This document shows positions 29,847 through 62,306 of a stretch of 64,000 nucleotides of DNA, in pieces. Position numbers and translations under genes: made by a program. Position 1 is the stretch's first letter, and every line of letters begins with the position of its first letter. Source of the stretch: Elusimicrobiaceae bacterium. Lineage in GTDB: Bacteria; Elusimicrobiota; Elusimicrobia; Elusimicrobiales; Elusimicrobiaceae. The stretch covers positions 62,001 through 126,000 of the forward strand of contig JAFZUQ010000006.1 in the NCBI GenBank assembly GCA_017618215.1, written 5' to 3'. The notes beneath the pieces are model-generated. The model saw only the letters and a list, made by a program, of their open reading frames with translations, searched no databases and had not been told where the DNA came from.

Positions 29847-29920
29847 TTTATATGATATATAGCACATCGGATATTACCAACTTAATAACATATTGGCATA
29901 ACATTTCCCGATTTTTTATT

Positions 29921-29929
29921 TGCTATAAT
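29921..29929 (+). promoter_or_regulatory. leaderless extended -10 promoter of glf
   Basis: TGCTATAAT (29921-29929), then six bases (AATTTT) to ATG 29936. It mirrors the divergent promoter of the M50 gene 75 bases away and sets the glf start. Confidence 0.65.
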
Positions 29930-29935
29930 AATTTT

Positions 29936-31063
29936 ATGAATAATAACCAGCATATTACGCCGGACATACTTATAGTCGGTGCCGGAATCAGTGGCATAGC
30001 TTTGGCACGTTTATTGGCTGAAAAGGACTATAGCGTATTGGTTATTGATAAACGCCCGCATATAGGCGGCAATTGTTATGACTATAAAGATGAAAACGGA
30101 ATTATTATTCATAAATACGGCCCGCATATTTTCAGGACAGATAATAAAGAAGTTTGGCAATTCCTGTCGCGTTTTACCGAATGGCAAGAGTATAAACATA
30201 AGGTTCGTGCAATTATTGACAGTAAAGAAGTACCTATACCTTTTAATTTTACCTCAATAGATATTTTATTTGATGCACAAAAAGCAAAAATTTTTGAAGA
30301 AAAATTAATTTCAAAATACGGTGAAAATAAAAAGATACCTATTTTAAAATTAAAGCAATCTACCGATAAAGATTTACAAGAACTTGCCGCTTTTGTTTAT
30401 GAAAAAGTTTTCTATCACTACACCTTAAAACAATGGGGATTAAAACCGGAAGAATTAGACGGGGACGCCTTGGCCCGCGTTCCTGTTTACACAAGTTATT
30501 ACGACGGATATTTTACCGAAAAATATCAGGCAATCCCCAAAAACGGATATACAAAAATGTTTGAAAATATTCTAAAACATCCAAACATCAAAGTGCAATT
30601 AAATACTGATTTTAAAGATTTAAAAAATATCAAATATAAAAATTTATTTTACAGCGGGCCTATCGACGAATATTTTGATCATAAACTCGGCCCCTTGCCT
30701 TATCGCAGTTTAAATTTTGAATTTAAAACTTTGCCGCAAAAACAATTTCAAGATGTTGCGGTAGTAAATTATACAGGCCAAGAACCATATACAAGAATAA
30801 CGGAATTTAAACATTTTTTAAACGAAGAAACATCAAGTACAACAATTGCTTATGAATATCCCTCGGCTTTTGAACTAGGTAAAAATGAAAGATATTACCC
30901 CATACCTAAACAAGAAAATGAGCAACTCTATAAACGATATTTAGAACTTGCCGGCAAAGAAAAAAACATTTACTTTATAGGCCGTTTAGGAGAATATAAA
31001 TATTACAGTATGCACAGTGCCGTTGCTGCAATTTTTGAATTGGTTAAAAAATTCGCTACTTGA
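29936..31063 (+). CDS. glf: UDP-galactopyranose mutase
   Basis: 375 residues. The FAD-binding opening ILIVGAGISGIALARLLAEK, RPHIGGNCYDYKDENG near 40 and HKYGPHIFRTDN near 62 are diagnostic, as are the tyrosines and arginines in EPYTRITEFKHF near 280 and EYPSAFELGK. It converts UDP-galactopyranose into UDP-galactofuranose, a precursor for cell surface glycans, and so fits the glycan cluster at 32983-41446. Start chosen at 29936 on the basis of the promoter and the family N-terminus; the frame extends 28 codons further upstream. Confidence 0.96.
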   Translation: MNNNQHITPDILIVGAGISGIALARLLAEKDYSVLVIDKRPHIGGNCYDYKDENGIIIHKYGPHIFRTDNKEVWQFLSRFTEWQEYKHKVRAIIDSKEVPIPFNFTSIDILFDAQKAKIFEEKLISKYGENKKIPILKLKQSTDKDLQELAAFVYEKVFYHYTLKQWGLKPEELDGDALARVPVYTSYYDGYFTEKYQAIPKNGYTKMFENILKHPNIKVQLNTDFKDLKNIKYKNLFYSGPIDEYFDHKLGPLPYRSLNFEFKTLPQKQFQDVAVVNYTGQEPYTRITEFKHFLNEETSSTTIAYEYPSAFELGKNERYYPIPKQENEQLYKRYLELAGKEKNIYFIGRLGEYKYYSMHSAVAAIFELVKKFAT

Positions 31064-31083
31064 TATTTAAGTTAAAATTTTGC

Positions 31084-31136
31084 TATATTAATGGCGGGAG
31101 AGCAGCCTAAATTCATAAAATAGGAGCTCTTTTTTT
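31084..31136 (+). promoter_or_regulatory. promoter and terminator-like leader before the 99-residue gene
   Basis: TGC-TATATT (-10 at 31084-31089) would start a 41-base leader. AGAGC (31099-31103) pairs with GCTCT (31126-31130), and CCTA (31106-31109) with TAGG (31121-31124). A run of T (31130-31136) follows and ends at the ATG. The SD AGGAG lies inside the 3' arm. It may be an attenuator that also hides the ribosome site, or the terminator of glf. Confidence 0.45.
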
Positions 31137-31436
31137 ATGATTATTACTGATTTATCCCAAGAAACCCCCTTAAACAAAGCCGTAAATTTAAAAGATATTG
31201 CTGTTCATGCAGGAATTGCAAAATGTTATAGCATAATTGCAACAGGCACTTTTACAGGTACACCCAAATTAACTATTTCCCACGACGGTACAAATTTCTA
31301 TCCACTTTATAATAATGATGGTGAACAAATTGAACTTGAAGCAAGCAAAGCATTATTTTTAAATTTTGCGAATGTATATCTTAAAGTTGATTTGACCGGT
31401 GTTACTTCTGAAGATTTAAAAGTTTCTATTCAATAA
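31137..31436 (+). CDS. phage structural-like protein, 99 residues
   Basis: A 99-residue beta-rich protein with the pattern ISHDGTNFYPLYNNDGEQIEL and KALFLNFANVYLKVDLTGV, reminiscent of small phage or tailocin structural proteins that report noise around a target value. No signal peptide, no cysteine pair. It sits nine bases before a large tail-fibre-like gene, and the two are probably one unit. Recognition is by style of sequence only. SD AGGAG is present but spaced 11 bases away and lies in a hairpin. Confidence 0.5.
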   Translation: MIITDLSQETPLNKAVNLKDIAVHAGIAKCYSIIATGTFTGTPKLTISHDGTNFYPLYNNDGEQIELEASKALFLNFANVYLKVDLTGVTSEDLKVSIQ

Positions 31437-31445
31437 GGGGGTATT

Positions 31446-32915
31446 ATGCAATATAATTTGCAAAGTTCCCTTGTAACCAACTTAAGAATCAAGCAAAAAA
31501 ATGACACTTTTAAAAAGCCAGACAGTTGGCCTAATATTAGGAAAAATGCACAAAACGGTCACATTTACTTACTCGTTGATGACAGATATCCTATTGGTTT
31601 TGTAGCAACCGTCACAGGCGGTTATTCTATTAATATTGACGGTGAGCATTACGATGATTATAACAGCCAAGACCAATTCTCTATGGCAGATTGGTCTGAT
31701 TATACCGATACAGAAGGTTATACTATCAATTACCCTACAAATGCTACAAAAGCACACATCATTGATATTTATTCTCAAACAGAAAGCAATGATATAACTG
31801 CTTTCGCTTGCGCAAGGACCGCCGCAAGCGGTAATGAAGCACAAGGTGTTTTATGGGCACACTTTCACATAAACAATGATATTGATTTAAGTAAAGGTTT
31901 CGCTTACACGGAATATTATAATGATTTATTAACTGCTGTTACTGCTAAAAACAACTTAATAATTGCAAGCGGTTTAGATTATTGTTTTTATAACGCAGCA
32001 AGTTTAAAATATTTGCCAAAAATAAATTATTCTAATGTCTCTGATATGACAAACTTTATTACAAACGCTCCTGCTCTTGAAAATACTGTATTGGATGTTT
32101 CTGCTGCAACAACTTTAACTAAAATTGACATCTGTGGAGATAGTACACATTTTATGTCAGGTTTCAAAGGTTTAAGAATTTCAAATCAAGCACCTTTTAA
32201 TTCTGCAATTACTCCCCAAATAAATATTTCCTATACAAATATGGATAAAGCCGCATTACTGCAACTATTTAATGATTTACCTACGGTAACAGACGGGCAA
32301 AGCATTAAAATCGTAGGTTGTAGTGGTACCAAATTAATTTCAGCAGGCAGTCCAACAATCGCTGATGGAATTGTAAGTAATTTCAGTAACAGTAATTATT
32401 TAACATCTTCACAACAAGTTGCTTTAGGCAATAATTTTGAAATTGTTACAGCATTTATAACGACAGACTTCACTAGTTATCAAGCAATAGTCGCAGCACC
32501 TCAAAACGCAACTTCCGATAGATTTATAATCCAAGTAGAAACAACCGGTAAATTATCATATTGGACTACTAATGGTTCAGACGGAATTATAAAACATGCC
32601 GGCTCTAATACACTTGCTGAAAATACGAAATATTATCTCAAGATGATTTGTAACAATGGTAGTTATACTGTTTATATCTCAACTGATAATACTACATTTG
32701 TAACAGATACCTCTTTTACAAGCGAATATAGTTTAGCTACAAATCATATATGGATAGGTAAATCTCAAAATAATATATTCTTTAAAGGTTCAATAGATTT
32801 AAATAATACTCATATTAAAATCAATGAACAGACTTGGCTTAATATAGATAATTATTTACTACCTGATGAAAGCGCAATAGCAACGGAGAAAGGCTGGACA
32901 GTTACAGTATCTTAA
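31446..32915 (+). CDS. phage tail fibre-like protein with LRR-like and LamG-like parts
   Basis: 489 residues, no signal peptide or membrane segment. Residues about 130-300 hold a BspA-like leucine-rich segment (SLKYLPKINYSNVSDMTNF and KAALLQLFNDLPTVTDGQSI), seen in phage tail and bacterial surface proteins. Residues about 310-470 resemble a LamG/concanavalin-like sugar-binding domain (NNFEIVTAFITTDFTSYQAIV and KYYLKMICNNGSYTVYIS). A receptor-binding or adhesive role is likely. It follows the 99-residue gene with SD AGGGGG and ends at a terminator. No capsid, portal or integrase gene is nearby. Confidence 0.55.
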   Translation: MQYNLQSSLVTNLRIKQKNDTFKKPDSWPNIRKNAQNGHIYLLVDDRYPIGFVATVTGGYSINIDGEHYDDYNSQDQFSMADWSDYTDTEGYTINYPTNATKAHIIDIYSQTESNDITAFACARTAASGNEAQGVLWAHFHINNDIDLSKGFAYTEYYNDLLTAVTAKNNLIIASGLDYCFYNAASLKYLPKINYSNVSDMTNFITNAPALENTVLDVSAATTLTKIDICGDSTHFMSGFKGLRISNQAPFNSAITPQINISYTNMDKAALLQLFNDLPTVTDGQSIKIVGCSGTKLISAGSPTIADGIVSNFSNSNYLTSSQQVALGNNFEIVTAFITTDFTSYQAIVAAPQNATSDRFIIQVETTGKLSYWTTNGSDGIIKHAGSNTLAENTKYYLKMICNNGSYTVYISTDNTTFVTDTSFTSEYSLATNHIWIGKSQNNIFFKGSIDLNNTHIKINEQTWLNIDNYLLPDESAIATEKGWTVTVS

Positions 32916-32982: not shown

Positions 32983-34128
32983 TTAAATTTTCAGAATTTT
33001 CTTACACATACTCTTTACTTTACAATAAATTCTTACCCATAAGGGACGATATGTTAATTCTTTAATCAATTTATTAATTTGTTCTTTCTGCCAACATCCA
33101 AAAAATTCTTCTCTTTTTATGTGTGGTTTAACTGAAGTTTTATAATAAGGATTATATTTGATAACTGTATCAAAAGAAACTTCTTTATAAACAATGTCAT
33201 CCTTTAATATATTAAATAACTTTTCTGATTTTTCGGTATTGATAAACAGAATAGACAGCCCATTTCTATCGAACATTTCAGGCGCATAATAGGAATAGCC
33301 CCAAGCATCCCCAATAGTGAAATCGGAAAACCTATTACTGTCTTTAAAATAACACTTATGACAAGAAGGCCTACAAAAAATTGTTTCGCCAAAACCTATA
33401 CGAAAAAGTGACATTTTTTTACTTTGAGGTTCTATTTTACCATCATTAAAATAGAAATAAAGTTTTGATTTATCCCAACCATATTTTTTATCCCGAAAAT
33501 CAATTTTTACAAGTTTGTTTACGTCATAGTTTTGTTTTAAAAATTCTTTCCACACACCGGGGCTTGGAACACTGTGGCAAATAATATCTGCAGTAAGTAA
33601 ATTATCATACTCTTTGTTTAAGAAACTTTTAAGCCCTGCTATTTGGCAAGGCGTGCCGGTATATAAAACCTGACGGTCTTCTTCTAAAAACTTTTTAGTT
33701 TCTTTGAAAGTTTCAAGAGTATTACTTTGTACATATTTTGAACGGCGTAAAATATTCAAATCTTCTTTTTTATCTATAAATCGGTGGTAGACTTCCCAAT
33801 TTTTATTAAAAGCAGCACCAAATACTACCCCGTTTTGTTCTAAAACATAATCAGCTAGAATACTAAACATACCACCCGAAGAACTCTTTTTTAATACTTC
33901 GGTATTTTTATTTTTAGCCACATATACTTTAGGTCTAAAATCTTGTTTTTGATTATTTAATATGGGACAAATTTTAAGGCAAAGTCCGCATTTAATACAT
34001 TTTTTATCATCAATGACAGGATATAAAAAGCCCTCATTATCTGCCCGCATAGTAATAGCATTTTTAGGGCAAATCTGCACACAAGCCCCACATCCGCAAC
34101 ATTTTTCTTTGCCTATTATTTGTATCAT
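32983..34128 (-). CDS. FrhB-like iron-sulfur protein of glycan cluster
   Basis: 381 residues. Two ferredoxin motifs open the protein (CCGCGACVQICPKN and CIKCGLCLKICPIL, residues 10-52), followed by the coenzyme F420 hydrogenase/dehydrogenase beta-subunit fold (SSSGGMFSILADYVL near 85, GTPCQIAGLKSFL near 160). Such FrhB-like proteins commonly sit beside polysaccharide pyruvyl transferases in glycan loci, as here, though their reaction is not established. It is the last gene of the cluster and overlaps the flippase gene by four bases. Confidence 0.85.
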   Translation of the reverse strand: MIQIIGKEKCCGCGACVQICPKNAITMRADNEGFLYPVIDDKKCIKCGLCLKICPILNNQKQDFRPKVYVAKNKNTEVLKKSSSGGMFSILADYVLEQNGVVFGAAFNKNWEVYHRFIDKKEDLNILRRSKYVQSNTLETFKETKKFLEEDRQVLYTGTPCQIAGLKSFLNKEYDNLLTADIICHSVPSPGVWKEFLKQNYDVNKLVKIDFRDKKYGWDKSKLYFYFNDGKIEPQSKKMSLFRIGFGETIFCRPSCHKCYFKDSNRFSDFTIGDAWGYSYYAPEMFDRNGLSILFINTEKSEKLFNILKDDIVYKEVSFDTVIKYNPYYKTSVKPHIKREEFFGCWQKEQINKLIKELTYRPLWVRIYCKVKSMCKKILKI

Positions 34129-35645
34129 GTTAATTTCCTTAAAACAAGTTTCTTAATACGTCCAAAAAGTTGTAACATATTTTTAGAATCTATAATATAA
34201 TTAAGCGAAGTTGTCCACATAATTAGCAACAGAACAATTCCAATCGCATAAACCATCCAATCAAAAACACTATTAATATACAACGGATATTTAAACCATA
34301 TCAAACTTGTTAGTCCGAACGTAATGAAAACCGGTATGATATGACGTAATGTGCGAACATAACTAAGTTTTGTAACATGTTTAGGAATAAAGAAAAGCAA
34401 ATCTATATCTCGATAAATATTAGCCAAAATAGCCCCGCCTACAATACCATAAAGCCCCCAAAAATAAGCACCTATGGCTCCGCCAATTGTCGCAATAAGT
34501 GCTTGTGTAGTGCTCTGCCAACGGGTTTGGCGATACATTCCGGCAGAAATAACCAACATACCTTGTGGAGTTTTAAGGTTATGCAATAATCCTTTTAACA
34601 CGCAAACAAAGCCCAAAGCAGGTAACAAATAGTTAGCATCTGTTATGTTTCTGGTATAAATTTGAATAAACGGTAAAATTAACAATAAAGCCGCACTATA
34701 TACAATTGTAATGAGCATATAATAAAATTGTTCAAATTGTTGAGTAGATTCTTTCAAAACTCTCCTTTGTTTACGGGCAATTACATCCCCAAACGAGGCC
34801 CCCAAGCCCGCCCCGAAAATTCCAAAAATACTTTCAATACCCATTAATACTAAATTGTATATACTAAAAATACTTACTTCTATCAAAGATGTAAAAATAG
34901 TTGCTAATACTATCGGTAAGGCTGAATGGACACTTCCCAATACTTCCAAATACAACACATTCCAACGCTCTTTAATAGATTTTTTGTTTGGAGAAACGCT
35001 ATAATCTACGAATGGAAAATGACGTATTGTATAATAATATAGCATAAAAGAGCGAACAAAAACAGAAAGCACGACTGCAACTTCTACCGTAACGATACTA
35101 AAGCCCAATTTAGCCAAACCCCATACGATTAAGATATTTAGCAACCAATATACAATTTGTGCGCAAGAAATAACATAACTTCTTTGACTTGCCGTTAATA
35201 ATACGCGGTATTTAGAAAGTGTAAAGAAATCAAGTACCCCTTTAACCCCCAAAGAAAATACCACTAATGCAATCTGCCAAGCAGTTAATTGAAGTGTTTT
35301 GGCAAAAACAGGATATAAAATTGCCAATAAACAAACTAAAGTTAAAAAGATATATCCTGAGGTTTGATAAAACTTTTTAGCGGCTGATAAAATACCATTA
35401 ATAGCAGGGATATCATTATCTGCCAACGGTTTATAAAGTGCATAAATACTTGCACCGGAAATACCTGCTTCTACTAGTACAAAGTAAGAAATGAACTGCG
35501 TAACAGATACTATAAAACCATTAATTTCAGAACCATATACTGTAAGTAATACTCTAGGAATAATAAATGCTGATACCATGGCTACTATTTGTTGCATGGC
35601 CATAGTAAATGAATTTTGTAAAAAAAGTTCAGTCCGACCTTTCAT
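34125..35645 (-). CDS. polysaccharide flippase (Wzx-type)
   Basis: 506 residues with about 12-14 hydrophobic segments, typical of MOP-superfamily oligosaccharide flippases. The opening NSFTMAMQQIVAMVSAFIIPRVLL and ISYFVLVEAGISGASIYALYKPLADND resemble Wzx proteins of O-antigen and capsule loci. It would move lipid-linked repeat units across the inner membrane. With the Wzy-like polymerase upstream it supports Wzx/Wzy-dependent synthesis. Confidence 0.85.
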   Translation of the reverse strand: MKGRTELFLQNSFTMAMQQIVAMVSAFIIPRVLLTVYGSEINGFIVSVTQFISYFVLVEAGISGASIYALYKPLADNDIPAINGILSAAKKFYQTSGYIFLTLVCLLAILYPVFAKTLQLTAWQIALVVFSLGVKGVLDFFTLSKYRVLLTASQRSYVISCAQIVYWLLNILIVWGLAKLGFSIVTVEVAVVLSVFVRSFMLYYYTIRHFPFVDYSVSPNKKSIKERWNVLYLEVLGSVHSALPIVLATIFTSLIEVSIFSIYNLVLMGIESIFGIFGAGLGASFGDVIARKQRRVLKESTQQFEQFYYMLITIVYSAALLLILPFIQIYTRNITDANYLLPALGFVCVLKGLLHNLKTPQGMLVISAGMYRQTRWQSTTQALIATIGGAIGAYFWGLYGIVGGAILANIYRDIDLLFFIPKHVTKLSYVRTLRHIIPVFITFGLTSLIWFKYPLYINSVFDWMVYAIGIVLLLIMWTTSLNYIIDSKNMLQLFGRIKKLVLRKLT

Positions 35646-35666
35646 AAATTTTAACGATATCCCCTT

Positions 35667-36668
35667 CTATAATACTCTTAGCAACCATTGCAGAGAATCT
35701 TCCCTACGTTTTTCAATTAACATGTTAATCTTAGAATAATTTATGGGTTTTGCAAATATATCTGCCAAAGCAAAAACATGAGTAGCATCCCTATCCTGTA
35801 AACCGGCCCACTCCATCGCATCAAGCACTTTCGCCTTACCTTGAGGAAAAATTGCGACTTCTTTATTAAAAATTAATGAAAACATAACCCCATGGAATTG
35901 GGAAGTAACAACATAATCCGCATCTTTAATATAACCCAGGAAATCAAAAGGGGTACCGTATATGTTTTCATCACACCATGTTATATCACAACCTACAGAA
36001 ATAATTTTCTTCCCGGTTTGTTTAGCAAATTGTTCAACCATTTTCCTTTCATGTTCCGATATACCCATCTCATATAGAAAAATAAAATTTTTGTGTGGGC
36101 AAGGTTCTGCTAATTTGGTCCATTGTTTAAATAGCAAAGTCGGGTCAACAACGGTAGCAGGATCCCTAGATGAAATTGTCTTAACGAGATTAAAGGTATT
36201 TCTATCTCTAACAGAAATATGTTTAAATTCGGAAAAATTAAAATCAGGCCCCGCAAGTCGTTTAAATTGTTCTGGTATTAACGAATTAGCACTTGCCGCA
36301 TACGAAATAATATTAGGAATTGAAATCCCTTTACCAAGATATTGTTTATAATGGATAAAGTTATTTGACAAATTCCAAACCTCATCGGAACCTACAATGA
36401 TTGTATCAAAATCATTTGGATTACGGCGAGTTACCTGCAATCTGTTTGACACTTTGTCAAATTGTTTCAACAATTTGTAATGATGAATTACTTTTCTAGG
36501 ATATTTACATTTAATTAATTTCAACCTATCTAAAAAACGGCTTTTTGCTAAATCTATAATTTCTACCTCATAATGCCGGTCTTGTAAAATTGTCTGCAAT
36601 GCAAACGCTTGCAGAAAAGCACCGTAATTTAAAGCATTGTGTAATGTTAAAATACCAATTTTTTTCAT
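35667..36668 (-). CDS. polysaccharide pyruvyl transferase family protein
   Basis: 333 residues. KIGILTLHNALNYGAFLQAF at the N-terminus, DTIIVGSDEVWN near 90 and SQFHGVMFSLIFNKEVAIFP near 280 are hallmarks of the family, which adds pyruvate ketals to sugars. FrhB-like partner gene is two genes downstream. The start chosen is ATG 36668; a TTG at 36680 would add four residues. No strong SD is visible, and the gene upstream ends 16 bases before. Confidence 0.88.
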   Translation of the reverse strand: MKKIGILTLHNALNYGAFLQAFALQTILQDRHYEVEIIDLAKSRFLDRLKLIKCKYPRKVIHHYKLLKQFDKVSNRLQVTRRNPNDFDTIIVGSDEVWNLSNNFIHYKQYLGKGISIPNIISYAASANSLIPEQFKRLAGPDFNFSEFKHISVRDRNTFNLVKTISSRDPATVVDPTLLFKQWTKLAEPCPHKNFIFLYEMGISEHERKMVEQFAKQTGKKIISVGCDITWCDENIYGTPFDFLGYIKDADYVVTSQFHGVMFSLIFNKEVAIFPQGKAKVLDAMEWAGLQDRDATHVFALADIFAKPINYSKINMLIEKRREDSLQWLLRVL

Positions 36669-36684
36669 ATTAAATTTCAATAAC

Positions 36685-37389
36685 CTATTTAAATATCTTT
36701 TTAAGTTTATTAACTATCTTAGCGCCTAACAAAAGCCGTCCTTTGGCTTTTAAGCGGGTTATGCCTGTTTCCCACAAGCGGCTATTCCAATGAATACCAT
36801 ATGTATTTGGAGTAAGCAATAACTCAGAATATTTTCCGCCAATAGGGCTAAAATATTCTGGAGGTAAAATAGTAACATTTTTTAAATTAATAACTTGTTT
36901 AGTATTAATATCATATCCCTCTTTTAAAAAAAGATATGTGTTCATTTGGGTACAAGGGGTCAAATCCGGCCCATCGGTAGTTATAAAATGTTTTCCATTA
37001 TATAGATCCCGCATTTCTTTTATAGTAGGATGATGAGCAGTAGCCCCAAAGCCCAATCCTGTATTTATACCTGAACCATCCGCTGCTACAAAAGCATCAA
37101 AGGCAAGTAAATCATCTAATGATTTCACTAATTCTACGTCCGTATCCAAATAAATACCACCATGTTGATATATAATATCCAAACGTGCTAAATCTGACAC
37201 AAAAGCCCATTTTTTTGTTTGATAGGCCTCTTGAAGATAGGGATTTTTAGCAATATCATAATTTCCCTCGTTCCATAATTTAATTTCATAATCCGGGCAA
37301 TGTTTTTGCCAACCGGCTATACATTTTTTAACGATATCAGGATATTTATTTTTCCCAAACCAACAATAATGAATTATTTTAGGTATCAT
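36685..37389 (-). CDS. GT32-like glycosyltransferase
   Basis: 234 residues. IPKIIHYCWFGKNKYPD at the start, WAFVSDLARLDIIYQHGGIY near 70 and the DxD motif in YLDTDVE near 96 identify a DXD sugar-binding glycosyltransferase of the GT32/capsular synthesis type. The metal-binding Asp pair holds the nucleotide sugar. Acceptor and sugar are unknown. It sits between the polymerase and the pyruvyl transferase, ten bases after the polymerase stop. Confidence 0.87.
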   Translation of the reverse strand: MIPKIIHYCWFGKNKYPDIVKKCIAGWQKHCPDYEIKLWNEGNYDIAKNPYLQEAYQTKKWAFVSDLARLDIIYQHGGIYLDTDVELVKSLDDLLAFDAFVAADGSGINTGLGFGATAHHPTIKEMRDLYNGKHFITTDGPDLTPCTQMNTYLFLKEGYDINTKQVINLKNVTILPPEYFSPIGGKYSELLLTPNTYGIHWNSRLWETGITRLKAKGRLLLGAKIVNKLKKIFK

Positions 37390-37398
37390 TTTTCCCCT

Positions 37399-38484
37399 CT
37401 AAAAACAAAACTCAAATGGCAATACATGATTCCATCCAGGCCGATATACAAAAACTATACTTTGATATAACACGAAACATCCGATTATCCCTATTGCGAT
37501 AAAAACACGTGATTTTCGCGGATAACAATGCACAAAAAATGGGAGTGAAATAAAATTAAATATTGACATGCACAATACAATCCTTTCCAACAAAATGGCT
37601 CTAATAGAAATACACTGTAAACAAAACGCTAAAATACTGCACCATAATAAAAATGACACTTTTAAAGGACTGCTTTTTCCTAACTTGTGATTGTATATAA
37701 ATATATAAGAAAATAAACAAAAAGTTGTAATAACAAACTGGACTAGTGTATTCATAATATTAGCCAACTTTAATTGTTCTCCTAAAAGTCCCCCATCTAT
37801 TAAATAAACTGCATACCTCCCTGTAATCGCAATTATTTTTTCTAAAATCGGTGCCAAAAATACCAAACTTAAAATCGTAAATAAAATAATCCAAATTAAA
37901 TAACGAAATTTAAATTCCAAAGGATATAAAAAATAAAGGATAAGTGTTATAAAAGATGAATAATGAAAAGATACAGATATACACCAGCAAATAAAAAAAG
38001 AGAAAAACTGCCTTCTAATAATGAACGGTATAGATAATAAAATTACACACATAGCCATTTCTTGCCGTAAAATATTCATACTGTTAGAAAAACCTAACAC
38101 AACAAACAGTAAGACAGCTAACATAATTGAGTTTGAATATTTATACAATGTATACATCCATGTACCTATAATAAACATTGAAGTACATAATAATAATACT
38201 TGAGGATTAGTAGTAAATATTGTTAAAAAACGGTTAAACAATAAATATCCCGCTTCCATATGGGATTGTAATAAGTCTGGGAAACTAATAAGCCTAATAA
38301 ATGTTTCAACATAAGGTAAAGTATCATTACCTATATTCCAAGAGCGAAATCCTGAAATAAACGCTAACTCCACAAAACACAACCATGCAAAAATGATATT
38401 TCTTTTTTTATCAGTACCAGTTAACAATATACCTTGAAACAATATAATTGCTATTAACAGATAAAATTGCCATAAATATTGCAT
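37399..38484 (-). CDS. EpsG/Wzy-like O-antigen polymerase
   Basis: 361 residues, nearly all hydrophobic, with about ten membrane segments. FRSWNIGNDTLPYVETF near 47 and the following ILRQEMAMCVILLSIPFI near 140 match EpsG-family polymerases. It would link repeat units on the outer face of the inner membrane. The sequence is AT-rich and variable, as normal for Wzy proteins. Confidence 0.82.
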   Translation of the reverse strand: MQYLWQFYLLIAIILFQGILLTGTDKKRNIIFAWLCFVELAFISGFRSWNIGNDTLPYVETFIRLISFPDLLQSHMEAGYLLFNRFLTIFTTNPQVLLLCTSMFIIGTWMYTLYKYSNSIMLAVLLFVVLGFSNSMNILRQEMAMCVILLSIPFIIRRQFFSFFICWCISVSFHYSSFITLILYFLYPLEFKFRYLIWIILFTILSLVFLAPILEKIIAITGRYAVYLIDGGLLGEQLKLANIMNTLVQFVITTFCLFSYIFIYNHKLGKSSPLKVSFLLWCSILAFCLQCISIRAILLERIVLCMSIFNFISLPFFVHCYPRKSRVFIAIGIIGCFVLYQSIVFVYRPGWNHVLPFEFCF

Positions 38485-38495
38485 AATAATTTACT

Positions 38496-39635
38496 CTAAT
38501 CTTTCTTCAACAGTTGATTTAAAATATTTACCTTTGATTCAATGGTAAGATGTTTTTTGTAATAGTGTAATGCCGCGCCTGCAAGCGATTCCCGTACTTC
38601 CGCATTTGCATTAAACACATCCAACCAATAGGCCATATCTTTTGCTGTTTTACAAATGACTCCACCCGGCAAATACCGCGCAACACCTACATCGGTGGAA
38701 ATAAATACTGTTCCTGCAGCCATGGCCTCTATCAAAGAAATAGAAAAAGCTTCCCAAGTACTGCCCATTAAATAAACAGAAGCGTTTTTAACATATTCTA
38801 TTGTTTTTTCCCGGCTGATACCGGTTAATAATTGTACTTTGCGTGGACCGTATTTTTTTTGCAATGAATTATTTAATTTTTGTAAATATTTATAATAAGA
38901 TGTTTCCATGCTACCGATAAGTATTAATTCCATATCCTTGCCGGCATTACTTTCATAAAAAGATTTTAATAAAAATTCTTGGTTTTTACGCGGAATATAG
39001 TTTGACACACATATAGCATAAGGCTTTTTATCTTCAATATCTTGACAATAAAATTTATCCTCTGCAGCATTTTCCAAAACAATGCCTTCAATGCCATAAT
39101 GTTTTTTGAAAAAGGTATAAGCATCATCAAAACGATGTAATTGCAAGACGTGATTATATTGTTTAAATTTATTTGTATTTACAAAATATAGCCATCCCCA
39201 ACGGATATGCCGCCATATTTTGTAAGCAAATGCTTTGAAAGAATTAAAATCTGTACGACGCCAACAAAAGTCATACATACCGTGCATATGAAGAATTTTC
39301 TTACATTTAATTTGAGGTAAAACCGGATACAGGAAATCCGTAAATGCCGTTTGGGTACATACATTAATCAAAACATCAGCATCTTTTGCTAATTTCACAA
39401 TTAATTGCTGATATTTCTTTTTATTCCCGAAATGCAAGGCATATTTGGTATAAACGGGCACGCGAATAATCTTCATACCCATAAAATTTTCTTCTTCCGG
39501 GCTGCCTTCAACTTGCGAGGTTACAATAGTTACTTCATGTCCTTTTTGGGCGAGCCCTTTTGTAAGATATTCCGTAACGGCCTGCACACCGTCTTTTTGT
39601 GGGTAAAATGTACTAACGGTAACTAATATTTTCAT
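38496..39635 (-). CDS. glycosyltransferase family 4
   Basis: 379 residues in two Rossmann domains. The N-terminal VSTFYPQKDGVQAVTEYLTKGLAQKGHEV is the GT4 opening; the C-terminal half has CVSNYIPRKNQEFLL near 215 and the EX7E-type STWEAFSISLIEAMAAGTVF near 315. It is a retaining transferase adding a sugar to the growing glycan. The acceptor is unknown. Confidence 0.92.
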   Translation of the reverse strand: MKILVTVSTFYPQKDGVQAVTEYLTKGLAQKGHEVTIVTSQVEGSPEEENFMGMKIIRVPVYTKYALHFGNKKKYQQLIVKLAKDADVLINVCTQTAFTDFLYPVLPQIKCKKILHMHGMYDFCWRRTDFNSFKAFAYKIWRHIRWGWLYFVNTNKFKQYNHVLQLHRFDDAYTFFKKHYGIEGIVLENAAEDKFYCQDIEDKKPYAICVSNYIPRKNQEFLLKSFYESNAGKDMELILIGSMETSYYKYLQKLNNSLQKKYGPRKVQLLTGISREKTIEYVKNASVYLMGSTWEAFSISLIEAMAAGTVFISTDVGVARYLPGGVICKTAKDMAYWLDVFNANAEVRESLAGAALHYYKKHLTIESKVNILNQLLKKD

Positions 39636-39637
39636 AA

Positions 39638-40633
39638 CTATTTACCCCTTATAAATTTATTAAAAAGCTCAATTTTTTTAATAGTTAATTTACGGCGCAA
39701 AGCACGGGGAGAACTTGCTTTTTTCACCGATAATTTTTTTAAATAAAAATCTAAGCGAGATTGCTTTTTTTGCCGTACTTCAATAAAATTTAAAGAAATT
39801 TCTTGCCAAGGTTCAAAACCTGCCGGAGTAATCAAATACTTCTGTGGAGTATCTTTAAATATACGTTCCAAACGGCGTTTTTGTATATGAATATATGCAT
39901 ATTCTTTTGTTTCTATGCTTTCCGCAGTTAATGTTTGTGCATACACTTGCCCGTTTTCTATAGAAAAAATACGTTTACCATATTCTAAAACAAAACCGGG
40001 GTTTTGATAATGGGATAACATAAAATTATGATATAAACAATTTACGTCCGCGATAAAATTTTCAAACGGATATATGCTTAATTTATTATGCCTAAAAATT
40101 GCATTTATACCATAATCATCATTTTCATCGAAAGCAAAATGAGTCGGAGAAGAAAAAATATCCTTATAATTGAAATTATGAGCAGAAGTTAGCATAAATG
40201 CTTTTGTAATTTCAGGTATATTTCTATATAAACACAAATGGCCTAAATGAGAAATTTTACCGTAACTTTGTTTAGGTAAAAACTTGTGTATCTCACCAAA
40301 AATCATATCCAAATCGCAATATCCCCAATAATCGCAACCTTGTAAATATTTCTCAAAGATATACCCGAAAGCCGGCCTATAATCACATAATTTATACGGT
40401 GTTTTTAAGGAAATAGGAAAATCAAATTTTGACTGTACTAAAGACTGAAGTTCTGCAAATTTCATTTGCTTTATTTGTACATTTTCCGGCAATATACCGT
40501 TATAAACATCATCGGTAAACACAATGAATAATATTTCTTTATTATATCCACAGGACTGAAGCCATAAATCAAATATAGCGGGAAGTTTGCCAAAATAAGG
40601 TGAAAAGACAATATATTTATAATTACTATTCAT
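39638..40633 (-). CDS. DUF6625-like putative glycosyltransferase
   Basis: 331 residues. The opening YIVFSPYFGKLPAIFDLWLQSC and GYCDLDMIFGEIHKFLP near 107 resemble DUF6625 proteins, in which a DxD-like CDLDM site suggests a GT-A fold. It lies two bases from the GT4 gene and three from the GT2 gene, so it should act on the same glycan. The activity is not shown for this family to my knowledge. Confidence 0.72.
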   Translation of the reverse strand: MNSNYKYIVFSPYFGKLPAIFDLWLQSCGYNKEILFIVFTDDVYNGILPENVQIKQMKFAELQSLVQSKFDFPISLKTPYKLCDYRPAFGYIFEKYLQGCDYWGYCDLDMIFGEIHKFLPKQSYGKISHLGHLCLYRNIPEITKAFMLTSAHNFNYKDIFSSPTHFAFDENDDYGINAIFRHNKLSIYPFENFIADVNCLYHNFMLSHYQNPGFVLEYGKRIFSIENGQVYAQTLTAESIETKEYAYIHIQKRRLERIFKDTPQKYLITPAGFEPWQEISLNFIEVRQKKQSRLDFYLKKLSVKKASSPRALRRKLTIKKIELFNKFIRGK

Positions 40634-42332: not shown

Positions 42333-44669
42333 CTATTTAGCCGCAATTTGAAATAAAGAATTAGTATATCGTCCAAAATCGTCTACAACAAGTAATTTAT
42401 GTTTACCTACTTCTGTTTCTATAAAACAAGGCTCTGTAGGTTTACCGGAGCAAATAAAATTATCATCTACGAACCAATATAAATCCGAAACATCGGCATC
42501 TGCAGTAGCACGAAGGGCAATATTTTCCCCATCGGAGTAATAAACTATATCAGGTCTTGGGGTTAAGATTTCAGGCTTTTTACCTTTATTTGTTTGCATT
42601 TCTATTTCACAACCTGGCTCATATAAAGGCGGTTTTAAATGATAAATTTTTGCCTTATTGAATAGGTCTTCTAAATCAGACGGCCAGAATTCATAAATGC
42701 GAGTATATGTGTTACCTTCTTCCTCAAAACATGCCCTTAAACCTGTCTTTTTATTTATAAGTACAGGTCTAAAAATATTTGATATTTTTATCGGTGATTT
42801 ACCTAAAATAAAATAATCTTCCACTACACTTGGGCAATACTTATCCGGTAACCCCCCGTCTATTTCACAAAATCTTGTGCGTACAACTTTTTTGTTAGGA
42901 TAAATTGGGGGAAGAAAGGTTTCCGGACTATCTTTAACAACTATCTCAATTAAACCGCTAAACAATTCCCCGGCAGCCGTTCTGCCAAAAATATTATTGT
43001 TACTTTTACCATCAAAATTACCGACCCATACCCCCAAAACATAATCGCCGAAAATTCCCACAGCCCATGCATCTTTAAAAGCGAAAGAAGTACCTGTTTT
43101 CCAAGCGACTTTCACTTTATCACCCAAATGATTATATATTTTTTTATTAGCATATAAGGGGTTTGAAGTAAGCATATCAAATAAAACAAAACTGGCTTCG
43201 GGGGATAATATTTGGTTTTCTTCTTTTATAGGTTCATCTTTTAAAAAACTTATATTTTGTACTTTTCCTCCATTTGCTATGGCTGCATACAGTTTAGCGA
43301 GCTCAAGCAAAGACACATCAATACTTCCTATAACCCCACTTATGCCGTAATAATCTGCCTGTTTTAAATTTTTTACACCACCAATCTTCAATAAATTAAC
43401 GAAATTATCCAACCCTACTTTAACAGCTAAATCTATAGCCGGGATATTCCTGCTGTTTACTAATGCACTTTTTGCCGAAACAGGGCCCAAAAATTGTTTA
43501 TCTGAATTTTCCGGTGCATATATACCAAAATATTGCGGTGTATCTTTTAACAGTGTCAAAGGGTGTATCAAACCCTCATCTAAAGCCAAACCGAAAATAA
43601 AAGGTTTTAATGTAGAACCTGACATTCTTTGAGCAGCAAACCCGTTTACTTGCCCAAAAATAGTATCATCAAAAAAATTGACAGATCCTACCGCAGCCTC
43701 AACACGCATTGTTTTTGTGTTTAATAAAAGTACCGCTGCATTATTTAAATTAAGAGATGATTTTTTATTTATAAATTTTTTAACAAAGTCTTCAATTTTT
43801 TGTTGTAATTGTAAATTAATAGAAGTAAAAACTTCCGATTTACTTTGTGATGTATTTGTATAATCTATTACATGCGGAATATAAAAAGGCAAATTTGATG
43901 GAGAAAATATATCACTTTTAATATTTAAGAAAGTTTTTAACTTTTCGTCCTGCGGGTGCTTTTTTATCCAATTTTGAAACAATTTTGTCCGTATCTCCCT
44001 CATATTTTCATAACCTTTAGGTGTTGAAGGACGCCGTGCATTTGGATTTTGAGGAATAACCGCTAGTGTTAAATTTTCTACCAAAACTAAATCTTGCACT
44101 CTTTTATGGAAATATATTAAAGATGCCGCCCCCACACCTTCAATATTATATCCGTAAGGGGCGGTATTTAAATACGCTTCCAAAATTTCTTTTTTAGAAT
44201 AAAATGCTTCCAAGTAAAGAGCATAAAAAATTTGTTTTATTTTGCCGGGGATAGTTTTTGTATCTAAATTATAAATAATTCTTGCCGTCTGCATAGTTAT
44301 GGTAGATGCACCTATCCGGCGGCTTTTTATAAAATATGTTTCCTTTAAAGCACGGAATAAAGAAAATAAATTTACTCCAAAGTGTTTATAAAAATGCCGA
44401 TCCTCATAAAGCAAAACAGCTTCCTGTAATTCTTTAGGAATTTCCGATAAAGGAATAAATAAACGGTATTTATCGTCATAAGAAGGGGTAACCCTTGCTA
44501 AAGTACCGTCTTTTAAGAAGAAAGATTTTGAAAAAGTGTATTTATTAAGTAAAGGCGATTTTGTTTGCTTTATGTATATAAAACCTGCCAAAAGTATACA
44601 CCCTATCACTATAAAAATAATGATAGGGCGTTTCTTTTGTATAAATAATTCTTTAACGTTTCTCAACAA
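42333..44669 (-). CDS. pbpC: penicillin-binding protein 1C (bifunctional)
   Basis: 778 residues. One N-terminal membrane helix (PIIIFIVIGCILLAGFIYI), a GT51 transglycosylase with EDRHFYKHFGVN near 72 and RRIGASTITMQTAR near 117, then the transpeptidase with SGSTLKPF near 350, SRN (NSRNIPAID) near 400 and KTGTSFAFKDAW near 530, and the C-terminal domain of PBP1C. It makes and cross-links peptidoglycan. It overlaps the alpha-2-macroglobulin gene by 17 bases, the classic pbpC-yfhM pairing. Confidence 0.95.
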   Translation of the reverse strand: MLRNVKELFIQKKRPIIIFIVIGCILLAGFIYIKQTKSPLLNKYTFSKSFFLKDGTLARVTPSYDDKYRLFIPLSEIPKELQEAVLLYEDRHFYKHFGVNLFSLFRALKETYFIKSRRIGASTITMQTARIIYNLDTKTIPGKIKQIFYALYLEAFYSKKEILEAYLNTAPYGYNIEGVGAASLIYFHKRVQDLVLVENLTLAVIPQNPNARRPSTPKGYENMREIRTKLFQNWIKKHPQDEKLKTFLNIKSDIFSPSNLPFYIPHVIDYTNTSQSKSEVFTSINLQLQQKIEDFVKKFINKKSSLNLNNAAVLLLNTKTMRVEAAVGSVNFFDDTIFGQVNGFAAQRMSGSTLKPFIFGLALDEGLIHPLTLLKDTPQYFGIYAPENSDKQFLGPVSAKSALVNSRNIPAIDLAVKVGLDNFVNLLKIGGVKNLKQADYYGISGVIGSIDVSLLELAKLYAAIANGGKVQNISFLKDEPIKEENQILSPEASFVLFDMLTSNPLYANKKIYNHLGDKVKVAWKTGTSFAFKDAWAVGIFGDYVLGVWVGNFDGKSNNNIFGRTAAGELFSGLIEIVVKDSPETFLPPIYPNKKVVRTRFCEIDGGLPDKYCPSVVEDYFILGKSPIKISNIFRPVLINKKTGLRACFEEEGNTYTRIYEFWPSDLEDLFNKAKIYHLKPPLYEPGCEIEMQTNKGKKPEILTPRPDIVYYSDGENIALRATADADVSDLYWFVDDNFICSGKPTEPCFIETEVGKHKLLVVDDFGRYTNSLFQIAAK

Positions 44670-47600
44670 TTAATTTGCCTTCGTCTGTGCTTGCACTTAA
44701 AGCACTATTGTACATTGCCTCTGCAATTACAGCCGGAACTATAAATTCCCCGGCATTAACTACTTTTACTTTATATGTTAAAGTGCTTGTATTAGTGCCA
44801 TAATTACCAAAAATAAGCAAGCGATCCTCCATAGGCTCGGCAAAAGTATATGACCCTTGCAAAGAACCCCTTACAAACATAAACGGTGCCGCAAACATAT
44901 CTACTATTGCAACATTTGTTATTTGCTTTCCGGTTAGGGATTTAATTTTTATTTTAACAGTTAATTCTTCGCCTGCTTTTATTTGATTGACGGTTTCGCC
45001 TTTATCATTTAAAAATTCTTGATAAATTTCCAAACCGTTTGAATATTTCTTAAGCGGTTTATTATCATAACCTTCTTGTTTTAAGAACCAGAAATTACCC
45101 ATAGGTGCATTTTGGCTAGCCGTAACTTTAAATTCTTTACAAGAAAGAGGTATTTCGCTAACTTCCGCTATTTCACCGTTTTTAACTTTTAAATTATTAT
45201 TATCACAGGAAACTTCAAATACGGCATCTGTACTGTTAAACTGTTTGGCATATTCAGATAATGCCGCCATTGAATAACTTGCAGACATTGTATTATAGTT
45301 ATTTAAAGCAATATCCCTGATAATAAGTTTCAAAAGTTCTTTTTGTTTCTTATCGTTTAATTTTTCCGGGAAATACTTTGACACCAAATACAAATATTTT
45401 GCATTACGCGTTAAACTTGTATCATAATCATTATAGGAAGTATATTTATTAACAGGTTCATAAGATTTAATCAAACCTTGTGCCTTATTGTTATCTTGAA
45501 GCATTTTATAGGCAGCTGCCAAATAAGCGCCTTCAATATTTTTCTTATAAGCAGGTTTATTGGTTTCAAAATATTTCTCTAAAGATGCTAAATAAGAGCC
45601 TTGGCTTTCCCCGTTGCGTGCAAGTAAATAATGCCCGTAAGCCATAAGTTCGGCTTGCCTATTGCTATAAGGAATACGGGATACATATTTTTTAATCCTT
45701 TCCATAGCCTCTGTAAGTAAAGTGTTCGGTATATTATAACCGAATTCTTTAGCCGTTAAAAGCATATCGGCAACATACATAGTTAATTCATCATCACCGA
45801 ATCCATCATCCCAAGCAGAGAAAGAGCCATTATCAGTTTGCCTTAAACTTAACTTACTAGTAACAGTATCTAATTCTTCTTGTACTTGTTTCTTTTCCTC
45901 TTTACCTTTTGCGGCAGCATAAGCCAAACGCGGGAAAATTTGGCTTGTTAATTGTTCCGTGCAACCGTAAGGATAATTCTTTAAGAAAGTTTCCAAAGAT
46001 AAGAATAAAACCAAAGGATTTTGTGATATATTCAAAGCACGGTTTTCCCTATAAGCATACATATCCCTGATACTAAAATCTTTGATTGTAAACTTATTAT
46101 CCAAAGCATTACCCATATCTACAGTTACTTTATAGGGGCTTGACGGCCTTACGCTTAAATCAAAAGAAGTTTGATATGTCTCTTTTAATGACTTTTCTTT
46201 TACTTTAAAGGTTATTGTATTGTTTCCGAAATTATCCAAGGCCTGAACTTTAAAGTAAATTGTTTTTTCCTCACCGTTTGCTATAGTAACGGTTTGTGTT
46301 TTATCACCAATTACTTTTAAACCATCAGAAGTATTTATAGAAGCATTAAAATTGCCTTTACTTAATTTTTCATTTTCATTTGCAATTCTTAAACCGACTT
46401 GAAAAAGATCATTCGGTACAGCCATACGCGGTGCAGAAGCATTTAAAATAACCGGCGATTTTACATTTACAGATTTTGAAGTACTGCCAACAGCCCTATT
46501 ATTTACAGCAACAGCCATAACCCTGATATTACCGTTAAAATAATTAGGAACCTTATAAGTATATGTTTTTGCGGTACTATCTGCATTCAAAATCTTAGAC
46601 CAAAAAGTTACCGGTGCTAAGCGGTTGCGTTTAAATTCATTTTGGTATAAAGCCATGTTTGTACCTTCAGACATCATATCACCGCCAATAGCGGAAACCT
46701 GGTTTATAATACCCAAATCAGGCAAGAATAAGTCAAAAATTTGATAAGTTCTCACAGCTAAATTCTTCTTGCGGAAGAAATATCCTAAAGGATTAGGTGT
46801 TTTATATTTTGCTACCTGTAATATACCTTCACTTGAGCCAAATAATATTATTTTTGTCGGTTGTGAAGTTTTATATTGTATATTTAATTGTTGCCCCGGT
46901 TGAACCAATTCAGGCGTGTTTAATTCTATATCTAATGTCCTTTGAGAAGGAGTAACATTAATGTATTTTACACCGCAACTGAATGGGGAAACAAAAATTT
47001 CCGGCGAATTTAAGGCTCGTACGAAAGAAATATTTAAATAAGCCCCACCTTCAACGGTATTTGGTATTCTTATTTTTTGTACACTGCTTGTCGTATTTGT
47101 TTTAAACCATTTGGAAGTATATACCTTATCACCTTCCAAAGTTATAAGGCCCATACCGGCATAAGGAGTTATTAAATTGATAGTAATTTCTTCATTAGGT
47201 TCAAAAGACTGTTTATCCAAATACATTACAAGTTCAGAGGACCTTTCTAAGTTAAAAGAAGCATTGTTTTGGCCCGCAACAAAATATTCTATTTTACTTA
47301 AAGCCTCTCCTGAATTATTATATAAAGTAGCGGAGAAATGCCCCGGTTTATCAGTCGGTAATTTAAAAGAAGTACCTTTTTTAGCAATATCAAATTTCTG
47401 CTTACTGATTTCTGTTTCCTGTAAAACAGATTGATAGCGGTAAACATCATCATATTGTTTAGTCAAAGCAGAAACATAACTCTGTTCTTTTAAAGCCAAA
47501 GTTAACCCCTTTAAATCAATTTTTTCCAGATTATTATTTAAGACAATAAAATCAATTTGAACTTCTGAGTTTTTATTTAAGAAAGATAAATTTGAATCTG

Positions 47601-60470: not shown

Positions 60471-62306
60471 TTATTGTAAATTTTCCAATTCGGTAGTAAG
60501 TTCAAGCCACTTGGCTTCAAGGTCAGTAATTTCTTTATTTATAAAGGCAAGTTCAATGCTTAAATCAGTATTAAATTGCACGGTTAAACGCTGCTCAATA
60601 TTTTGTTTTTGATTGGTTAATTTATCAAGTTTTTTCTCAATTTCCCTGATTTGTTTTTTTATGGGGGCGGCTTGTGCACGAAGTTCGGCCGCAGTTCTGC
60701 GGCGCTCTCTTTTTATGTCCGCTTTATTTTGCGCGGCACTTGCACCGCCGCCGTGTAAAACAAAGTTTTTATAATCTTCCAAATCGCCTTCATAATTTTG
60801 GACTGTACCGTTTGCGACGAGCAAAAGGCGGTCTGTAACTTCCTCAAGCAAATTAAAATCGTGCGTAACTAAAATTACTGCACCGCTGTAATTGTTTAGA
60901 GCCTCACTTAAAGCTCGGCGGGAAGTTATGTCTAAATGGTTTGTCGGCTCGTCTAAAATTAAAATATTTGGGCGCGCAATTGTTATCATTGAAAGGAGTA
61001 GCCTGCTCTTTTCCCCCCCTGAAAGGCTGCCGATTTTTGTGTCCGCTTTATTTTTTTGCAAGCCAAAACAAGCAAGATGAGTGTAAACTTCAGCCTCTTT
61101 GGCCTCAGTCATTTTTTCTTTAGCAACTTCATAAGGTGTTTTATCAAGGTCAAAAACTTCCGTCTGATGTTGGGCGAAATAACCCACTTTTATTTTGCGT
61201 GCATAAGTTAATTTACCTTCCATTGTCGGCAGCATTCCGGCAAGCAATTTAGCAAGTGTACTTTTACCGTTACCGTTTGCCCCAAGCAATGCAATTTTAT
61301 CTTCCGCACCGATAGTTAAATTAATATTTTTTAAAACAGGTGTGTCATTATATCCGCAGGAAACATCTTCCAAAGTATACAAATATGCATCAAGCAAATC
61401 AGGCTCCGGGAAAGTAAAACGAACGCTTTTTTCTATCGGAATTTTTGGTGCGTCGCCCATACGCTCAAGCATTTTTAAACGGCTTTGTGCCTGCTTAGCT
61501 TTGGTGGCTTTATAGCGGAATCTATCGACGAAACTTTGCAAATGTTTGCGTGTTTCTTCATAGCGTTTTGCGTCTTTAATAATTTGCTCGGTTTGATTAT
61601 GGCGGGTACGTTCATAAGTATCATAATTGCCGGTATAAGTTTTTAATTTACACTCATCGACTAAAATAATTTTTTCGCAAATTTTATTAAGTAATGCGCG
61701 GTCGTGGCTGATTAAAAAAAGTGTTTTATCGGTTTTCTCCAAAAAACTTTCAAGCCAAATTGAGGTTTCTAAATCTAGGTGGTTTGTAGGTTCGTCCAAA
61801 AGCAAAATATCAGACGGGGCAAACAAAGCAGCCGCAAGAGCAGCACGCACGCGCCAACCGCCGGAAAGTTCTTTTAAAGGCTTTTTTAATTCCTCATCCA
61901 AAAAACCAAGACCGCCCAAAATCGCACTTGCACGCGCTGAAGCGCTGTTGGCACCGAGGTTATTTAATTTATCGTAAATTTCTGCAATTTCTTCGCCTGA
62001 TTTGGCGATGGCAAGTTTATCATACAAAACCTTTAAACGTTTATCTGCCTGCAAAACATATTCAAGTGGAGTTAAAGAAGTATCTTTAATTTCCTGCTCA
62101 ACGGTGGAAATTTGCGTGCCGGAACTAAGGGTAATTTTACCGCCGTCCGGGTAAATTTGACCGAGAATAAGACGAAATAAAGTAGTTTTTCCGCAACCGT
62201 TTAAACCTACAAGGCCGGTTTTTGTACCGTCGGCAATAAAGCAAGAAGCATCTTCAAAAATCGGGCGAAGGCCTATATGATAACTTAAATCAGAAATTTC
62301 TATCAT
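60471..62306 (-). CDS. ABC-F family ATPase
   Basis: 611 residues with two ABC domains and no membrane helix. First domain: GLNGCGKTTLF near 35, LSGGWRVRAALA near 145, LLLDEPTNHLD near 168. Second domain: GANGNGKSTLAK near 345, LSGGEKSRLLLS near 430, LILDEPTNHLD near 452. A charged linker lies between them and a coiled coil follows at the C-terminus, as in Uup/YdiF types. Members act on the ribosome in translation or resistance. It begins 18 bases after typA, with SD AAAGGG. Confidence 0.92.
   Translation of the reverse strand: MIEISDLSYHIGLRPIFEDASCFIADGTKTGLVGLNGCGKTTLFRLILGQIYPDGGKITLSSGTQISTVEQEIKDTSLTPLEYVLQADKRLKVLYDKLAIAKSGEEIAEIYDKLNNLGANSASARASAILGGLGFLDEELKKPLKELSGGWRVRAALAAALFAPSDILLLDEPTNHLDLETSIWLESFLEKTDKTLFLISHDRALLNKICEKIILVDECKLKTYTGNYDTYERTRHNQTEQIIKDAKRYEETRKHLQSFVDRFRYKATKAKQAQSRLKMLERMGDAPKIPIEKSVRFTFPEPDLLDAYLYTLEDVSCGYNDTPVLKNINLTIGAEDKIALLGANGNGKSTLAKLLAGMLPTMEGKLTYARKIKVGYFAQHQTEVFDLDKTPYEVAKEKMTEAKEAEVYTHLACFGLQKNKADTKIGSLSGGEKSRLLLSMITIARPNILILDEPTNHLDITSRRALSEALNNYSGAVILVTHDFNLLEEVTDRLLLVANGTVQNYEGDLEDYKNFVLHGGGASAAQNKADIKRERRRTAAELRAQAAPIKKQIREIEKKLDKLTNQKQNIEQRLTVQFNTDLSIELAFINKEITDLEAKWLELTTELENLQ

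Follow-up and report, generated by a model that had tools for sequence, protein, structure and literature searches.

Well-studied gene transfer agents (GTAs; viriforms) come from few lineages, as drawn in part from PMC9662315. PMC7296036 describes the head spike of the gene transfer agent RcGTA as a pentamer of jelly-roll base proteins (Rcc01079) that holds one fibre (Rcc01080) by its hydrophobic N-terminal peptide, and reports that the head fibres attach to the capsule. According to PMC10218006, head and tail fibres of RcGTA both bind the capsule. Here, we analyzed a 64,000-nucleotide stretch of DNA (the window) from an Elusimicrobiaceae genome, GenBank assembly GCA_017618215.1 (G000; 1.34 Mb in 19 contigs), where it occupies positions 62001 to 126000 of contig JAFZUQ010000006.1 (C6). 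Two adjacent genes in the window encode proteins of 99 and 489 residues, and we consider it likely that they form the receptor-binding spike operon of a GTA-like element that has become part of the chromosome in this genus of Elusimicrobiaceae (g1). The evidence points to an undescribed DNA-sharing (gene transfer) particle whose genes are scattered over the chromosome and kept across relatives.

The pair resembles Rcc01079 and Rcc01080 in combining a small jelly-roll-like base with a fibre that begins in a hydrophobic peptide, here seen as genes and models. It differs from the RcGTA spike in its fibre body, which is built of leucine-rich repeats (LRRs) and a LamG-like domain, in the position of the operon beside a polysaccharide locus, and in the peptide spacing. 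There is no sequence match between the two in a PDB profile search, in which Rcc01079 was not compared directly. The turret of HFTV1 is likewise a two-protein capsid protrusion (base and head protein) with a sugar-related outer domain, but its base is hexameric on hexamers of the major capsid protein (MCP) and its head is trimeric. Our best reading, by analogy, is that the spike would work like that of RcGTA, and we claim membership in no known GTA family.

A sequence-only reading of the window had placed the two open reading frames (ORFs) between glf and a glycan cluster, with no signal peptides; coordinates and neighboring genes confirm the placement (Table 1), with both genes on the same strand and 9 bases between them, and no signal peptide is visible by eye at either N-terminus. 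Pfam and PHROGs scans of the two proteins returned weak matches only. The model of the 99-residue protein is a beta sandwich with a mean pLDDT (predicted local distance difference test) of 87, compared with 64 to 71 for the other four models. Its best VIA-align match is YomS (Z 8.2, 89 residues, root-mean-square deviation [rmsd] 3.5, 8% identity), a Z that the tool's own note counts as modest, followed by a phage VP1 capsid chain (Z 6.5), on which our literature search found no paper, and a BPP-1 chain (Z 5.5). YomS is the closest solved fold, and it differs in that it and XepA, both pentamers from Bacillus subtilis prophages, are described as lytic-cassette proteins.

The 489-residue protein is, in its model, an LRR-like solenoid with an inserted LamG-like domain. 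Its closest structures are LRR proteins (TpLRR, Z 9.9, rmsd 3.7, 194 residues aligned), while the Pfam scan matched no LRR family. The first 300 residues are the conserved part, and block-mean pLDDT exceeds 90 for residues 21 to 280. In the alignment, the LamG-like stretch separates KGWTV, the last conserved motif, from the end of the LRR part, and most g1 relatives are without the insert. Residues 315 to 451 match PF13385 (Laminin_G_3) with an E-value of 5.4e-4 and 20.6 bits, below the curated cut-off of 27.6 bits, and residues 324 to 440 have VIA matches to lectin-like folds in a part where model confidence is low. The fold search that the sequence-only reading had proposed against tail fibres led to a pentameric prophage protein for the small partner and to LRR solenoids for the large one.

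Relatives of the 99-residue protein occur in 13 of the 100 genomes searched (own genome included), all in g1, and those of the 489-residue protein in 20, of which 11 belong to g1 and the remaining 9 to its sister genus, g6. Each protein has a single copy in its own genome, so the multiple paralogs that had been suggested were not found there. Scans of viral contigs and phage records, within their sensitivity, found no homolog of either protein. The suggested phage link in relatives holds for one partner: prophages of two relatives (G014 and G013) carry a paralog of the 99-residue protein, and none was found to carry the 489-residue protein. The G014 prophage (L069:999-11336), like that of G013 (L067), encodes a 2847-residue LPD-domain protein, the 99-residue paralog, and a fibre-like gene of its own.

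The fibre is built of exchangeable parts. Eight of the 11 g1 LRR fibres begin with a similar hydrophobic peptide by eye (e.g., LQSSLVTNL, LQNSLLADL, and TSLLTSL), those of G005, G006, and G013 having other N-termini, and the protein behind the prophage 99-residue paralog starts with the similar ILYSSLVLSS. In G003, an unrelated 216-residue protein, lectin-like by eye (L059:10074-10724), replaces the LRR fibre behind the conserved 99-residue gene, and its N-terminus, YLQTTLPIEI, resembles those of the eight LRR fibres. The 99-residue partner has thus been kept while the receptor body was swapped. The gene order in g1 is the 99-residue gene, the LRR gene, and then, in 7 of the 11 genomes with an LRR gene, a 60-residue gene, c10 (six by clustering, G009 by hidden Markov model). 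In a related prophage of G006, a fibre module lies 3' of a hub-size gene, and its last gene is a c10 homolog (E 1.5e-21 among 427 ORFs).

Table 1. Features of the spike operon and its neighbors (window coordinates)
Feature	Position	Strand	Basis or content
99-residue beta-sandwich (jelly-roll-like) protein, proposed spike base	31137..31436	+	ORF reading, homologs, model, VIA fold matches
489-residue protein, proposed spike fibre/receptor-binding protein	31446..32915	+	ORF reading, homologs, alignment, model, fold matches
Hydrophobic peptide at the fibre N-terminus (LQSSLVTNLRIK), which may dock on the base	31458..31493	+	Similarity by eye; docking by RcGTA analogy
Inserted LamG/ConA-like domain, close to the C-terminal end of the LRR part	32343..32861 (limits approximate)	+	Alignment, PF13385, VIA
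Promoter of the pair: TTGATA -35-like (31060-31065), extended -10 TGCTATATT (31081-31089)	31060..31089	+	Sequence reading
Leader hairpin GGGAGAGC...GGAGCTC with U-run directly before ATG	31096..31136	+	Sequence reading
glf-like gene, left neighbor, UDP-galactopyranose mutase by reading	29852..31063	+	
Polysaccharide cluster, right side	32983..40633	-	FrhB-like, flippase-like, polysaccharide pyruvyl transferase, capsule-type glycosyltransferase, EpsG, GT4, DUF6625

Genus g1 keeps the genes for the small and large terminase subunits (TerS-TerL), for portal and protease, and a capsid-to-tail cassette at separate places among genes that read as ordinary. The four element loci of G000 (C6:51150-52758, C9:91689-93478, C18:16566-24413, and C6:93137-94915) lie on three contigs and are 40 kb apart on the one that they share. 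No other phage gene had been noticed earlier, and none is apparent by reading of the ORFs near the pair, where family scans covered part of the window ORFs; TerS and TerL, however, lie on the same contig, 9 to 11 kb to the left of where the window begins. In the stretches read around the element loci, no integrase or replication gene was recognized.

The terminase search found matches in 15 of 18 g1 genomes, including all 11 near-complete ones. TerL has 396 to 399 residues in 14 of them, the G008 match (456 residues) looking like another gene, and two sets of motifs, which we take to be Walker-type and nuclease-type, are invariant in 14 of 14 sequences in an alignment made without the G008 match and the prophage copies. 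The small gene beside it is called TerS by position, with no family match. The portal gene (PF04860; E-value 8e-73 in G006) and the protease gene (PF04586; 4e-8) together form one small locus, and the portal is present in 14 of 18 g1 genomes (11/11 near-complete). An HK97-type MCP occurs in 15 of 18 (11/11), with a second one in prophages of G006 and G017 and a second match below the cut-off in G001; it is at most 34.6% identical to its matches in the 15 of 418 phage records listed. Family matches place a head-tail adaptor, weak head completion, neck, tail terminator, major tail protein (MTP), chaperone, and tape-measure-like gene 3' of the MCP gene, followed by genes for 215 and 783 residues, "distal tail" and "hub" by position only, and then the small genes v10 and v11. 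This order is constant in 15 loci within contig reach, leaving aside short overlapping genes that our simple ORF caller skips; v10 and v11 are present in G000 and G003 as well, although the caller passed over them. The tape-measure-like gene is short, with 231 residues and a range of 218 to 282 in 12 genomes, versus 670 and 716 in two related prophages; the RcGTA tape-measure has about 216 (113+83+20). Type IV pilin-like genes, named by reading, adjoin several element loci (L146:18880-19404, L184:5520-7102, and L213:17072-18013); such genes look frequent in these genomes, so the adjacency may be due to chance.

These features resemble those of RcGTA and other GTAs: phage-derived genes at several loci, conservation that may be largely vertical, HK97-type head genes, and a short tape-measure. 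PMC9662315 characterizes GTAs as fully endogenized, often at several loci, which corresponds to the four loci of G000, and as particles formed by proteins of caudoviricete descent, for which TerL, portal, protease, MCP, adaptor, neck, terminator, MTP, chaperone, and tape-measure-like genes are present here. It further describes them as inherited for the most part vertically and diversifying along with the host, as unable to package their own genome in full, and as carrying random host DNA to other cells. An intact prophage would sit in the chromosome as a single unbroken genome that includes genes for integration and replication, whereas here the loci are apart and their flanks read as ordinary. 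The element differs from the known GTAs in belonging to another phylum, and its particle is a prediction.

The pair is linked to the portal locus, and in part to the MCP loci, by its leader. The portal, spike, and some MCP operons open with an extended -10 together with a hairpin of the GGGAG type and its U-run, and the ribosome-binding-site (RBS)-like AGGAG of the pair (31122-31126) falls within the 3' arm of the hairpin, which may act as an attenuator or RBS mask. The extended -10 TTTGCTATAAT was considered as a regulon signal in its own right, but it also tops control regions; it was set aside as a promoter in general use in these genomes, so that the leader alone counts. In scoring by a matrix trained on 31 portal, MCP, and TerS leaders, with those of the pair excluded, 8 of the 12 spike leaders were outscored by no more than 3 of 725 control upstream regions. 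The 12 are what remains of 15 rows after omission of G016 (contig end) and the two prophage paralogs, all three of which fail. A composite, stricter criterion is satisfied by 11 of 13 portal leaders, 10 of 15 spike rows, and none of the 725 controls; it was tuned with the spike leaders already seen, while the matrix was not trained on them. Genome-wide, the leader pattern has 40 sites in 18 genomes versus 17 for a reversed control. By position, 9 of the 40 belong to spike operons, 9 to portal operons (two on portal-fragment contigs), 4 to MCP operons, and 18 to others, among which are two sites of G000, one on C17 and one on C11 that lies inside a conserved coding gene. In G006 and G014, the spike and portal operons are the sole two sites. 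The hairpin arms fall out of register in a MAFFT alignment of the leaders, and in G003, where the fibre is replaced, the hairpin is changed too. Our literature search found no paper on leader antitermination in GTAs. A separate palindrome like TGATACATTTGTATCA, a possible operator, overlaps the MCP promoter (L213:8487-8520, with the same place in other g1 MCP loci); none was noticed at other element loci.

The leader shared with the portal operon and the fibre-module gene c10 tie the pair to a particle. The earlier suggestion of a domesticated receptor-binding module beside a surface-sugar locus is supported. Polysaccharide-type genes adjoin 11 of 12 chromosomal spike loci, as judged by clusters shared with annotated or eye-named genes. 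In the window, they run on the strand opposite to the pair, and the flippase-like gene among them (34125-35645) is named by reading, with no Pfam match at 1e-5. Farther right (42333-50190), an alpha-2-macroglobulin-like protein of 1845 residues adjoins a PBP1C-like protein.

The pair is conserved in 10 of 11 near-complete g1 genomes, and the genes are under purifying selection. Ratios of nonsynonymous to synonymous divergence (dN/dS) are 0.08 to 0.24 for the 99-residue gene (6 genome pairs), 0.12 to 0.33 for the fibre gene (5 pairs with finite dS), and 0.03 to 0.12 for TerL and portal (seven pairs), many of the dS values being high. To assess inheritance, we compared element distances with those of a single host gene, TrpS, by Mantel tests on 11 genomes (G004 and G013 are among those left out). 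Spearman coefficients were 0.29 to 0.80 for eight head and tail genes (P 0.001 to 0.037), 0.50 for the 99-residue gene (P 0.007), and 0.31 for the fibre gene (P 0.055). The distal-tail, MTP, and fibre genes fit least. Since element distances follow TrpS only in part, some exchange or fast change is likely. The 99-residue gene of G000 is nearest to that of G014 (92%; TrpS 89%), not G010 (72%; TrpS 96%). A joint exchange of the spike with capsule genes was considered and set aside, as the neighboring glf does not follow this affinity and so gives no indication of joint transfer.

In the proposed mechanism, the 99-residue jelly-roll-like protein would form a base, probably pentameric, on which the 489-residue protein would dock by its short hydrophobic N-terminal peptide, with the LRR/LamG receptor domain pointing outward. 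This would be a head spike like Rcc01079-Rcc01080 more probably than a tail fibre. The remaining particle parts would come from the portal-protease, TerS-TerL, and capsid-to-tail loci. We infer that a particle forms, that base and fibre make contact, and that it packages host DNA and transfers it, with the spike binding the surface polysaccharide of sister cells.

The strongest competing explanation, which we regard as possible though doubtful, keeps the GTA-like particle and makes the pair its tail fibre, a tail-tip adhesin with a small adaptor. The position of the c10 homolog in the tail-fibre region of the G006 prophage favors it, as does the element cassette, in which the small genes v10 and v11 come immediately after v7, the last of the large genes, with no fibre gene between, the spike operon being elsewhere. 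This empty place is a positional argument, since the v10 match in prophages is doubtful (E 0.04). The capsule binding by the RcGTA tail fibre (PMC10218006) would fit as well. In g6, moreover, the LRR homologs, which share the receptor part of the window protein (24 to 43% identity in 9 of 9), form the end of larger fibres encoded last in a podovirus-type cassette, most of them with a T7-like N-terminal part by reading; no 99-residue partner was found in g6. Against the tail fibre, the g1 LRR proteins paired with the 99-residue gene are without such a tail-type part, the 99-residue fold matches pentameric and capsid-surface proteins, and a small base with a fibre is the head-spike layout of RcGTA (PMC7296036). 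We favor the head over the tail tip as the probable position, by about two to one.

Several observations weigh against a spike operon of a GTA-like element altogether. The Foldseek E-values for the 99-residue model are weak, and a search of PDB chains with its family profile, at a limit of E 10, yielded just two matches, both unrelated and neither a phage or RcGTA chain. Among the spike leaders, those of G009, G010, and G013 are beaten by 17 to 25 controls and that of G003 by 142, and the strict leader criterion is passed by 0 of 12 TerS and 4 of 15 MCP operons. Near-complete G004 is without the pair in homolog searches. So are the six family genomes outside g1 and g6, which have the portal and no recognizable pair, and no 99-residue or LRR homolog is seen in either of the element-related prophages. 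Agreement with TrpS is only moderate. In the window, no c10 was found to follow the pair, nor did the other G000 stretches examined contain one, and the hub-size tail gene of G009 is split into two overlapping frames (L223:5597-8021) by mutation or assembly error. Particle, expression, and transfer are all predictions from genes and models.

A stand-alone surface adhesin or colonization factor of phage origin, unrelated to any cell-made particle, would fit the glycan-locus location and the LRR and LamG-like domains, both known in surface proteins. It is improbable given the lack of a secretion signal by reading, the leader in common with the portal operon, conservation alongside capsid, portal, and terminase, and the 99-residue homologs in two prophages. 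Even less probable is decay, in which a single prophage would have broken up into dispersed fragments that have no present function. The scattering of the genes with no recognized integrase or replication gene, the missing c10, and the split G009 gene are what decay would leave. Frames are otherwise open across 12 to 15 genomes, though, with dN/dS well below 1, TerL, portal, and MCP persist in all 11 near-complete genomes, and the portal is 55 to 68% identical in all six genomes of four further genera. Phage particles kept by hosts can serve other uses, and a capsid-carrying killing particle or phage-exclusion decoy would need none of the DNA delivery that we predict; it is very unlikely, as a conserved TerL with intact motifs would be unneeded, and the decoy of the sequence-only reading finds no support beside a portal-shared leader and c10, which point to a particle. 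Its other proposal, a tailocin (a tail without capsid, portal, and packaging genes), does not fit, as such a tail would not need the terminase, portal, and major capsid genes that the genome keeps.

The element extends beyond g1. In a sampled portal survey of 60 genomes, the portal is found in the six family genomes outside g1 and g6, whereas g6 versions are 28 to 34% identical and occur in 3 of 36 genomes; the 20 viral loci found are at most 36% identical. One cluster of G019 (L308) holds homologs of portal, adaptor, MTP, distal tail, and hub. The element is partly joined in G020 (L306; portal-protease-TerS-TerL) and G021 (L307; TerS-TerL-portal), and in the stretches read of G018, G023, and G025, portal-protease stands by itself. 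G019, G020/G021, and g1 may represent a series from a contiguous cluster to scattered loci. The g6 podovirus-type cassettes contain a PF12236 portal, a GP7-type capsid, tail proteins, the LRR-ended fibre, and genes that read as lysis-like, in much the same order and often near an ftsK-like gene (L056-L058, L072-L077, L119, and L120). Of the 12 g6 genomes tested, 11 have a PF12236 portal above the cut-off, with one fragment in addition, and the cassette is possibly a second fixed, host-kept particle.

Papers found for Elusimicrobia together with gene transfer agents, or with prophage tail fibres, report no such element in their titles or abstract openings, and "Elusimicrobi" is absent from the main text of the gut packaging study PMC12946183. 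If our interpretation is true, this would be a gene transfer agent in a phylum without one reported in the literature found, a link between the aim of a GTA and the host capsule locus, and a candidate common RNA switch for scattered GTA operons. It would also provide a set of genera with the phage cluster in different states: contiguous in G019, partly joined in G020 and G021, scattered in g1, and seemingly replaced in g6. For the family as a whole, we tentatively propose, at somewhat less than an even chance, that Elusimicrobiaceae inherited a family-old, scattered GTA whose spike operon settled in the capsule locus, where the receptor would vary as capsule genes do, so that particle aim and surface sugar would change together and DNA would go to kin. 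The common leader hairpin, as an antitermination or RBS switch, would fire the operons together, and g6 would have lost the element and fixed a podovirus-type particle with the same LRR receptor.
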